In this document: positions 2,087 to 40,451 of the stretch, one piece after another | Layout of the letters: every line of letters begins with the position of its first letter | How positions within the stretch are numbered: position 1 is the first letter of the stretch | Source: Psittacicella hinzii | GTDB lineage: Bacteria; Pseudomonadota; Gammaproteobacteria; Enterobacterales; Psittacicellaceae | NCBI RefSeq assembly: GCF_003585885.1 | Contig: NZ_NRHC01000011.1 | Coordinates: 1-47,136, forward strand | Reading direction: 5' to 3' | Length of the DNA stretch: 47,136 nt | Program-made: the position numbers and the translations under genes | Notes under the pieces: generated by a model | What the model was told of the DNA's origin: nothing | Databases searched by the model: none | Seen by the model: only the letters and a program-made list of their open reading frames with translations

Positions 2087-3203
2087 AATTTAAGTCTTTA
2101 ATTTCTATACGATTTTTTTCAACCGCAACTCTTGCTCTAATCTTAGCTTCAAGTTGGTCAATCATTAGATCATTATCTAAACGGTCAATGCGTTTACCAT
2201 CTTCATAAAAACCTGATTTACGCATACCACCAGTTACTCCCATATCAGCTACGAGAGCTTCACCTGGTCCATTTACCACGCAACCGATTATTGATACATC
2301 TAATGGTGTTAAAACATCTTGTAATCTATCTTCTAAAGCGTTTACTGTACCTATTACATCAAACTCTTGACGTGAACAAGTAGGACAAGCAATAAAATTA
2401 ATGCCTCGCTTGCGTAAACCTAAAGATTTTAAAATTTCAAAACCTGCTTTTACTTCTTCCACAGGATCTGCAGCTAAAGAAATACGGATAGTATCACCTA
2501 TACCTTCAGCTAGTAGCATTCCTAAACCAATTGCAGATTTTACTGTTCCTGAACGTAAGCTTCCTGATTCTGTAATTCCTAAATGTAAAGGAACCATAGG
2601 TAAAGCTTCCGCTAGTTTACGGTAAGAAGCTACAGCTAAATCAATATTTGACGCTTTAACTGAAACTTTAAAATTTTCAAAATTTAAACGATCAAGATAA
2701 TCAACATGTCTTAACGCAGACTCAACTAGAGCTTCCGGAGTTGGTTCTCCATATTTTTCTTGGAGATCTCTTTCTAATGAACCTGCATTAATACCTATAC
2801 GAATAGGAATATTTTTATCACGTGCAGTTTCTACTACACGGCGAATTCTTTCTTCGTTACCAATATTACCAGGGTTAATACGTAAACAGTCTACCCCATA
2901 TTCAGCAACTTTTAAAGCTATGCGATAATCAAAATGAATGTCTGCAATTAGTGGTACTTCTACACTTTGCTTAATTTCTTTAAACGCCTCTGCGGCATCC
3001 ATAGTTGGAATAGATACTCGTACAATATCTACCCCTACATCTTGTAAACTCTTAATTTGTGCTACCGTTGCTTCTACATCGGTAGTTCTAGTATTGGTCA
3101 TAGACTGTACTGTAATTGGTGCATCACCACCTACAGCTACATCTCCTACCCAAATTTTTCTGGTAGGACGACGATCTTTTATAACTTTAAATTCACTACT
3201 CAT
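2085..3203 (-). CDS. ispG: 4-hydroxy-3-methylbut-2-enyl-diphosphate synthase
   Basis: Fe-S enzyme of the MEP isoprenoid pathway, converting MEcPP to HMBPP. The 372-residue length is that of the bacterial family. The N-terminal TIM barrel begins with the typical [20 protein letters not shown] region. The C-terminal cluster domain holds Cys-Pro-Thr-Cys (about residue 272) and [11 protein letters not shown] with the third cysteine and the conserved glutamate. Gene order rodZ-ispG-hisS is conserved in gammaproteobacteria. Here it seems to have its own promoter at 3248-3256 and its own terminator. Confidence 0.97.
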
Positions 3204-35957: not shown

Positions 35958-36828
35958 TTACAAATGGTAATATATTGTTTCTTTACGTCGAGCGTTTGGG
36001 CTCATTGTCACACACTTATCAACCATTTGCACGTCACTAAAAGCTTTAGCATTTAGATCATGCTTAACCATTTTCTTAAACAAATCCTCGATCTGAAGAA
36101 ATCTGTTATTGATGTAGAAGAAGAGATAAGGCGGTCTTATTAACAGCATTAACTCAAGTAAGTCAGCGTAGTTAAAAGTCTCACCCTCTTCAGAATATCC
36201 CTCTAGGTTAGTGCCTATATAAGGGGGGTCTAATAAAAACACCACTTTGTCATGTTGGTATTCTTTAGCGGTTAATAATTCTTTGTAATCACAGTGGACT
36301 ACTTCAATACCGTCTAAATAATCCTCACAAAGTTCAATTTGTTTTTGTGGCACACGGTAATACAGGCAGTTAATGTATTTTAAAAATTGCTCTTTATTTA
36401 AGGCAATGTTGCCCGAATAAAGAAACCAAGCAGACAGGAAGCGGTAGTTTACCCCCCCCCCCATTAACTTCTTGATTATTAAGCCAATTTTTAATTTCTG
36501 ATAGGATGTTCTTATCGTCTAATTTACCCATTCTACTAGGTTTATTCTCTCCGATAATTCTGGTAATGTCAGACCAATTTGACCTTGCCACTGAAATATT
36601 AGCTAGCTCATTTGTATAATGATCGAAGTCGTTATATACCACTTTAGCTTCTGGAAACCAACGCTTAGCGTTGTGTGCTAACAATCCAGTGCCACCAAAT
36701 AGATCAACTATTGTGTAACCAGCACCGTCGGAGTTAGAAATAACCTTTTGTAAAAATGCCTTTACATCTTTTAAGAAATAGCGCTTTTGCCCAAAGTATG
36801 GCACAGGCGCCTTGTTGTAAATCTTCAT
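35958..36828 (-). CDS. D12-class adenine methyltransferase, frame interrupted at an 11-G tract (phase-variable)
   Basis: Two overlapping frames (36828-36394 and 36464-35958) together match the intact paralogue next door along its length. The first half has APVPYFGQKRYFL and the SAM motif VDLFGGTGLLAHNAKR; the second has the catalytic FLLDPPYIGTNLEGYS. The break lies at a run of 11 G on the minus strand (36452-36462). With 10 G the frames join as NGGGVNYRFLSAWFL, corresponding to SLNFRFLSCWFL in the paralogue, and give about 289 residues. As sequenced the product stops shortly after the tract. The ATG at 36828 is chosen by alignment to its paralogues. N6-adenine methylation is expected; the target is unknown. 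Confidence 0.85.
36452..36462 (-). repeat. 11-G homopolymer in a methyltransferase gene
   Basis: Eleven consecutive C on the plus strand (G on the coding strand), inside the region encoding a Gly run. Such tracts slip during replication. Loss of one base restores the full frame; the present length truncates it. Confidence 0.95.
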
Positions 36829-36845
36829 ATCTAACAAAAATATTT

Positions 36846-37718
36846 TTATAAATGGTAGTAGATGCTCTCCTTTCTACTTGCAGATACATTTAAACCTACA
36901 TCTCTATGTAACATTTGCATATAACGAAATGCTTTAGCATTTAGATTTTGCTCTAGCATTTTCTTTGTAAGGTCTTCTATCTGTAATAACTGATTGTTAA
37001 TGTAGAAAAGCATATAAGGCGGTCTAATTAGCGTCATGAGCATAAGCATGTCTGCGTAATTAAATTCTCGACCTTGTTGAGAGTATCCTTTTAAGTTAGT
37101 GCCAAGATATGGCGGATCTAATAAGAAAATTACTTTATCCTTTTTAAATTCTTCTTTGTTTAAAATCTCTCTGAAGTCACATTGCACTATCTCAAGCCCC
37201 TCAAGGTATCCCGTGCAAGGATTAATTTGCTTTTGCGGGATACCATGATAGAGATCATTTAGATGATACAAGAATTCTTCTTTGTCTCTTGCAATACGAC
37301 CGGAGAATAAAAACCAACAAGAAAGAAAACGAAAGTTTAAACTACTCTCATCTTTAAGAGATTGATTATTAATATAATCTCTAATATCTGATAGGACTTT
37401 ACTATCGGTAATTTTCTCTTTATGTTTATAAGTTTTACCTTTTAAAATCTCTTTGAGATCTAACCAATTCTGCATGGCGACTGGTATTTTCTCCACCTCT
37501 TTAGCATAGTTATCAAAATCGTTGTAGATAACTCTAGCATTAGGATAGAGACGTTTTGCATTGTGAGCTAATAAACCTGAACCTCCAAAGAGGTCAATAA
37601 TGGTATAGCCGTCACCTTTAGCGTTGCCTATTGCTTTCTCTAAAAAGGATTTTAAATCTTGTAGAAAGTAGCGCTTTTGTCCATGAAATGGTACTGGCGC
37701 CTTGCTATAAGTTTTCAT
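36846..37718 (-). CDS. D12-class adenine-specific DNA methyltransferase, intact
   Basis: 290 residues, complete alpha-type order: N-terminal APVPFHGQKRYFL, SAM site IDLFGGSGLLAHNAKRLYP, then a target-recognition region, catalytic FLLDPPYLGTNLKGYS at about 200, and a C-terminal ASRKESIYYHL. Dam-like phage enzymes methylate adenine and protect against host restriction or time packaging. At the place where its neighbour has a G tract this one encodes KDESSLNF without a homopolymer, so it is stably on. 17 bases separate it from the phase-variable copy. No strong ribosome site is visible. Confidence 0.88.
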   Translation of the reverse strand: MKTYSKAPVPFHGQKRYFLQDLKSFLEKAIGNAKGDGYTIIDLFGGSGLLAHNAKRLYPNARVIYNDFDNYAKEVEKIPVAMQNWLDLKEILKGKTYKHKEKITDSKVLSDIRDYINNQSLKDESSLNFRFLSCWFLFSGRIARDKEEFLYHLNDLYHGIPQKQINPCTGYLEGLEIVQCDFREILNKEEFKKDKVIFLLDPPYLGTNLKGYSQQGREFNYADMLMLMTLIRPPYMLFYINNQLLQIEDLTKKMLEQNLNAKAFRYMQMLHRDVGLNVSASRKESIYYHL

Positions 37719-39623: not shown

Positions 39624-40451
39624 CTATGAATTATCTATCATAATATCATCGTAATACCCCCCCCCATGGGTAGATCCAAACCCCTTGTATGTGTTAAAAT
39701 CACGCAGTTGTTCGCAATCTATTGGGTACTTACCTAAAGCAATCATTAATTGAGCGTAGTTGAATTTTGAAGAGCCAAACATTATGAACTTATTTTTATT
39801 TTGAGTAATTAAGCTAATTAGCTTAACTAGATCCTCAATATTAAACTCACTCTTATAGGCGCTCTGACTTGTGAAAATATAAGGCGGGTCAATAATGAAC
39901 ATAACTTTTGAATACTCTTTATATTGCTCAATTAGTTCATCGTAATTTTGTCTGGTAATTTCTAAACCGTCTAAGTACTCGTATGCACTATAATTACCTG
40001 ACGTAATTACATTAAAAAATGCGTTCTTTTCAATATGCTCCCACGTAGTGGCGTTAATACTACTAAATAGTAAATTAGCGCCTAATGTAGGTATATCTAG
40101 ATAACCGTCGAAGTTCTTAATCTTATTGATAATCTCATCTTTATAATCGTCTAACCTTTGCTTAAAAGGCACCACATTGTGGTAAGTAGAATAAAGATCT
40201 TTTATCAATCTGTTTGTGTCTTCTATATGTAACAAACGCTCTTCATAGTTATCGAAGTCATTGTAAATAACTTTAGCGTTTGGTTTTAGACGTTTAGCAA
40301 TGTGAGCTAATAAACCAGAACCTCCAAAAAGGTCAACTATAATCCAATCTTGACCTTGGTCAGGTATCTTGTTTAATGCAAGCTTAAAATTATCTAACAT
40401 TCTCCTCTTTTGCCCTGTAAAGGGTAAAGGAGCCTTATTGTAAATCTTCAT
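39624..40451 (-). CDS. third D12-class adenine methyltransferase, with a 9-G tract near its end
   Basis: 275 residues. The N-terminal APLPFTGQKRRML and SAM site VDLFGGSGLLAHIAKR match the other two copies; the catalytic motif is FIIDPPYIFTSQSAYK. It is more divergent in the target-recognition region (about 70-150), suggesting another target or strength. Near the C-terminus the frame passes through nine G (39657-39665, encoding GSTHGGGYYDD); length change there would replace only the last nine residues. As sequenced it is intact. It begins the block that contains the lysis genes. Confidence 0.87.
   Translation of the reverse strand: MKIYNKAPLPFTGQKRRMLDNFKLALNKIPDQGQDWIIVDLFGGSGLLAHIAKRLKPNAKVIYNDFDNYEERLLHIEDTNRLIKDLYSTYHNVVPFKQRLDDYKDEIINKIKNFDGYLDIPTLGANLLFSSINATTWEHIEKNAFFNVITSGNYSAYEYLDGLEITRQNYDELIEQYKEYSKVMFIIDPPYIFTSQSAYKSEFNIEDLVKLISLITQNKNKFIMFGSSKFNYAQLMIALGKYPIDCEQLRDFNTYKGFGSTHGGGYYDDIMIDNS

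Follow-up and report, generated by a model that had tools for sequence, protein, structure and literature searches.

Phase variation has mostly been studied in surface and restriction genes of the host. In phage Mu, Mom carries out a broad adenine modification of phage DNA that acts against restriction, and the adenine methyltransferases Hia5, Hin1523 and Nma1821 occupy the mom position in Mu-like phages; the last three are reportedly the subject of a study by Drozdz et al. According to the accessible part of the source, their targets are very short (PMC5399793). M.Btr192IV and its orthologue M.Btr189ORF5700P, two prophage methyltransferases of Bibersteinia trehalosi, are described as highly similar to Hia5 and carry 12 CAAG copies inside the coding sequence, 63 bp after the start codon (PMC4996451, accessible sections). 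The same sections describe M.Btr192IV as promiscuous for adenine when cloned and both genes as silent in their native hosts, and the authors call the significance unclear (PMC4996451). Cj0031 of Campylobacter is given, in the accessible part of its source, as a phase-variable Type IIG enzyme (PMC4687069). Phase-variable methyltransferases are already known, and so, in the accessible sections of PMC4996451, is a repeat-bearing Hia5-like prophage gene.

The DNA analysed here (the window, 47,136 nucleotides) is one whole contig (G000:C13) of the 2.3-Mb draft genome, in 162 contigs, of the bird-associated Psittacicella hinzii. An earlier note on this DNA had called its methyltransferase prophage-borne, and a lambda-like gene set running from about 9 kb to the contig end agrees with that. 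The features are as follows.

9076-47136, no strand assigned: lambda-like prophage with genes A, B and C, truncated where the contig stops (integrase, lambda-family portal, gpA terminase, lysozyme, RusA, SSB)
35958-36828, minus strand: gene A, adenine methyltransferase of the D12 class whose assembled frame is interrupted by the G tract (from the ORFs, the tract and homology to gene B)
36452-36462, minus strand: 11-G tract of gene A
36394-36837, minus strand: 5' half ORF of gene A, motifs GQKR and DLFGG (PF02086 24.6 bits, cut-off 22)
35958-36464, minus strand: 3' half ORF of gene A, motif DPPY (PF02086 16.1 bits, below the cut-off of 22; PHROG 56 at 9.8e-14)
36846-37718, minus strand: gene B, intact paralogue without a G tract (PF02086 37.7 bits, cut-off 22)
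39624-40451, minus strand: gene C, third of the paralogues, with an open frame in the assembly (aligned over 99% of its length, it shares 38-39% identity with SuMu_53 and with proteins of Moraxella phages)
39657-39665, minus strand: 9-G tract of gene C, near the C-terminus, encoding the turn that leads into the final strand

Eleven C on the plus strand, that is eleven G on the coding strand, lie at 36452-36462 inside gene A. Read from the ATG at 36828, which follows the end of gene B by 17 nt, the 5' half encodes 144 aa and meets an out-of-frame stop just past the tract; the 3' half ORF (168 aa) has an ATG at 36464, right at the tract, and overlaps the 5' ORF by about 70 nt. With ten G the gene becomes one 289-aa ORF, which aligns end to end with gene B at 57% identity, and with nine or eleven G it is truncated. 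Apart from the tract, gene A has no other lesion. The genes are assigned to the D12-class adenine methyltransferases by PF02086 scores above the cut-off, reached by gene B and by the 5' half of gene A, together with the motifs GQK, DxFGG and DPPY. The earlier note had described an adenine methylase broken at eleven G beside an intact paralogue, restored and alignable with that paralogue on dropping one G, and with motifs kept in both halves; all this is borne out. Its span of 36394-36837 covers the 5' half of the gene but omits the 3' half.

The second tract, that of gene C, was absent from the earlier note. Its frame is open at nine or twelve G. In a structure model the tract encodes the turn that links the final two strands. 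Downstream of it stand Y267 and D269, two residues that at least 90% of the 49 sequences in an alignment share; altered C-terminal ends resulting from a frameshift at the tract would be expected to abolish activity. Gene C has the D12 motifs and matches PHROG 56 at 2.9e-26, with no match to PF02086. By PHROG 56 and tblastn, genes B and C are close to proteins from phages of Haemophilus, Moraxella and Bacteroides, and both share 38-39% identity with SuMu_53 of a Haemophilus phage. Membership of the Dam family (TIGR00571) was rejected, gene B scoring 29.7 bits against a cut-off of 114.85 and gene C giving no match. No solved structure related to gene B by sequence was found, and the best match of a fold search with gene B, 7m6b (TM 0.49/0.56, 16% identity), indicates a class-level resemblance only.

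Words of eight G are expected 0.11 times in the window according to dinucleotide shuffles, and six overlapping matches are seen, in two tracts; none of 100 shuffles reached six. Runs of eleven G are expected 0.0004-0.008 times in the window under Markov models of order 1-5. These shuffles and models rule out a chance origin of the 11-G run. A lone 9-G run such as that of gene C is weaker evidence, because order-3 and order-5 models fitted on the window allow about 3-6 nine-G runs in a genome of this size. The 3' half of gene A (164 codons) stayed open in none of 10,000 base shuffles. Between genes A and B, pN is 0.262 before the tract and 0.240 after it, and pS 0.747 and 0.852, respectively; as a rough estimate, this suggests equal purifying selection on both halves, the selection tests being rough and compatible with a recent loss because synonymous sites are near saturation. 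The tract position maps to an inter-helix loop in the model of gene B (mean pLDDT 91). Gene A thus carries the features of a contingency gene, namely a frame-toggling repeat in the coding sequence and intact, selected sequence on both sides of it. Homopolymer runs of this kind readily gain and lose units. We consider it probable that slipped-strand phase variation governs gene A as an adenine methyltransferase gene carried by the phage.

The earlier note had proposed comparing tract lengths in related prophages. A prophage of the sister Psittacicella genome G002 (L143, P. hinzii strain 111) has three tandem paralogues, one of which carries an in-frame tract of nine G, at another codon than the tract of gene A. 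Among 188 distinct relatives, pooled from best-scoring subsets (78 of 78, 79 loci from 207, the best 80 of 536, and others), the longest G run is at most six in 185, and 9, 9 and 13 in L093, L143 and L213; these frequencies describe the best-scoring relatives, not the whole family. L213 is a Bacteroidales genome, and L093 and L305 are uncultivated phage contigs, L305 being a tract-bearing family member added by a pattern scan. The six tract-bearing genes are out of frame in A, L093 and L305 and in frame in C, L143 and L213, and their tracts occupy three sites: before motif I in four genes, mid-gene in A and C-terminal in C. On a 74-row tree, supported branches leave no fewer than six changes to account for the six tracts. 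In L179, which is closely orthologous to L305, GGGGTGGG stands where L305 has nine G, a difference that, judged from the sequences, looks like the birth of a tract.

The pattern scan of viral contigs for a G run before motif I returned seven contigs, and a C-run control none. It supports tracts in the family of genes A-C by two contigs only (L305, and L308, which is L093), because five of the seven hold other methyltransferase types. These other-type phage methyltransferases (L303, L304, L306, L307 and L309) carry nine G just before a C-terminal motif I, and L303 is out of frame at nine G. Among 394 genomes of the host's order (Pasteurellales), the pattern next to motif I occurs only in P. hinzii (L143), in a scan that covers tracts at this site and is blind to the sites of genes A and C.

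Among the best-scoring relatives, 14 of 238 regions, or 10 of 197 distinct regions, have repeats of CAAG type at the gene's 5' end. Their copy number varies: 9 copies of CAAG stand against 21 in two contigs whose encoded proteins are identical beyond the repeat, and 18 against 12 in a second pair with 97% identity. Differences in repeat length were confined to such CAAG-bearing relatives. For most of the CAAG-bearing regions the closest ATG upstream lies out of frame, and for L267 and L287 it lies in frame; some of the repeats could precede the true start, because start codons there are not fixed. Upstream of position 5001 in L287, about 167 CAAG-type copies lie in frame within a 509-aa ORF.

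G runs of 9-12 occur nine times in the host genome and runs of 7 four times, and runs of 8 are absent. One of the nine long runs is in a gene of 970 aa, near codon 54, and is in frame at nine G.

G000:C18:384-3293, minus strand, with the tract at 3127-3135: host Type IIG restriction-methyltransferase (PADLOC model, 7e-216)

This gene likely encodes, as far as its sequence tells, a restriction enzyme that is phase-variable and stands opposite the prophage methyltransferases. The host also has an HsdR gene. A DpnI-family search gave no match in the host genome and likewise none in 14 control genomes, so that the missing match is no evidence of absence. Intergenic G tracts of 9-12 lie at C57:37143, C78:6716, C157:2882, C157:10030, C121:10125 and C101:68019 of G000, several of them 0.8-1.3 kb from adhesin- or fimbria-like genes, so named from their translations alone. 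Further matches to the PHROG 56 DNA methyltransferases occur at C104:4501-5589, C19:17-661 and C29:11121-12062. In the genome search the host's family comprises four genomes, all of the single genus Psittacicella; the methyltransferase gene is absent from G001 and G003, and relatives of the Type IIG gene are present in G003. In-frame G runs inside long ORFs were also seen in the sister genomes, of 13 in L123 (G002:C173:15349) and of 9 in L113 (G001:C32:6344).

Gene A might instead be a recent pseudogene, broken by a single slip while the adjoining intact gene B does the work, with no selected switch. Broken or partial members of the family elsewhere in the order (G173 and G135) would fit such a history, as would the number of nine-G runs that the higher-order models allow per genome. 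It is nevertheless unlikely, given how rarely a run of eleven G is expected in the window, the lack of a second lesion in gene A, and a host genome with nine G runs of nine or more but none of eight; gene C also has a tract, and those of relatives stand at other sites and reflect six separate gains. The earlier note had preferred a switch to decay, and this preference finds support in the tract, the intact ORF on its far side, selection on both halves and the loop site, as well as in the tract-rich host genome, the tract of L143, the six poly-G gains and the varying CAAG copy numbers.

Long homopolymers are error-prone and the draft is fragmented, so that the true tract length might differ from the assembled one and gene A simply be intact; we regard this as very improbable, and about ten G would still lie within the gene, leaving the interpretation as a switch standing with gene A ON. 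Still less credible is recoding or a split enzyme, in which ribosomal or transcriptional slippage, or a restart at the 3' ATG, yields product and the tract tunes dosage. The position of that ATG at the tract and the overlap of the two ORFs suit it, but the relatives' tracts lie before motif I or near the C-terminus, where, judging from the sequences, a restart would give no two useful halves.

Under slipped-strand phase variation, gene A with ten G, and by arithmetic also with thirteen, would yield the full and presumably active enzyme (ON). With eleven G, as assembled, translation would end soon after the tract and before the catalytic DPPY, with expected loss of function (OFF). Being in a loop, the tract should tolerate length changes. 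We infer slippage of the tract during replication, which would leave lysogens and virions as a mix of ON and OFF. With gene C carrying its own tract (ON as assembled) and gene B constant, the phage may step its total methylation. The enzymes would likely serve to methylate adenines broadly in phage DNA and so to shield it from restriction, a role suggested by their homology to the methyltransferases that Mu-like phages carry beside Com, in the mom position. Restriction escape is a likelier role than an effect on the epigenome of the lysogen, which is possible. More tentatively, and with somewhat less than even confidence, we propose that phage adenine methyltransferases of this family repeatedly become contingency loci, through poly-G at three sites as well as through CAAG repeats, because full modification is costly, for instance under methylation-dependent restriction, so that bet-hedging pays; here the host Type IIG gene and the prophage methyltransferases would both carry G-tract switches.

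If the main interpretation is true, a recurrent switch acts on the phage's own DNA-modifying enzyme, and virions from one lysogen would differ in restriction resistance. Several phage lineages have known tract positions, which makes a concrete system in which to test phage bet-hedging against host defences. A literature search that covered few subscription papers did not turn up a phage adenine methyltransferase reported to switch by poly-G. As far as our searches go, the new element is poly-G inside the gene, occurring in paralogue arrays and gained repeatedly among phages of Psittacicella and of a Bacteroidota-type clade.

The relation to the mom-position enzymes runs through SuMu_53, which directly follows Com. 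A Com-like zinc-ribbon ORF lies just upstream of the gene in 52 of 232 tested relatives, one of which (L076) looks spurious; all four upstream ORFs checked against Pfam score over the Com cut-off. The window itself yielded no Com-like ORF. Homology thus ties the genes to the Com-adjacent family, but they do not directly follow Com in the mom position, and the prophage is lambda-like. In the 74-row tree genes A and B group with the three L143 paralogues (100/100), outside the Com-associated clade that holds SuMu_53, and gene C falls with that clade (94/90), a placement that is unsure because of its long branch. Non-specific activity is less sure for gene A than for gene C, because genes A and B lie outside the Com clade and the window has no Com-like ORF.

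SuMu_53 thus belongs to the same family as genes B and C but sits after Com in a Mu-like phage and, unlike gene A, lacks any long repeat within the scanned region. Hia5, Hin1523 and Nma1821 are likewise prophage adenine methyltransferases, whose homology to the family of genes A-C is traced indirectly, by way of SuMu_53 and the neighbourhood of Com. Mom of Mu differs in both chemistry and control, gene A being controlled, on our interpretation, by slippage. Cj0031 would share with gene A the poly-G/C switching of a DNA-modifying enzyme, but it is, in the accessible part of its source, a host restriction enzyme of a different family. The Bibersteinia genes are, like gene A, prophage-borne with a simple repeat in the coding sequence, a likeness drawn from their description in the accessible sections only; their repeat is CAAG near the start, whereas that of gene A is poly-G in mid-gene, and those sections describe no tandem array (PMC4996451).
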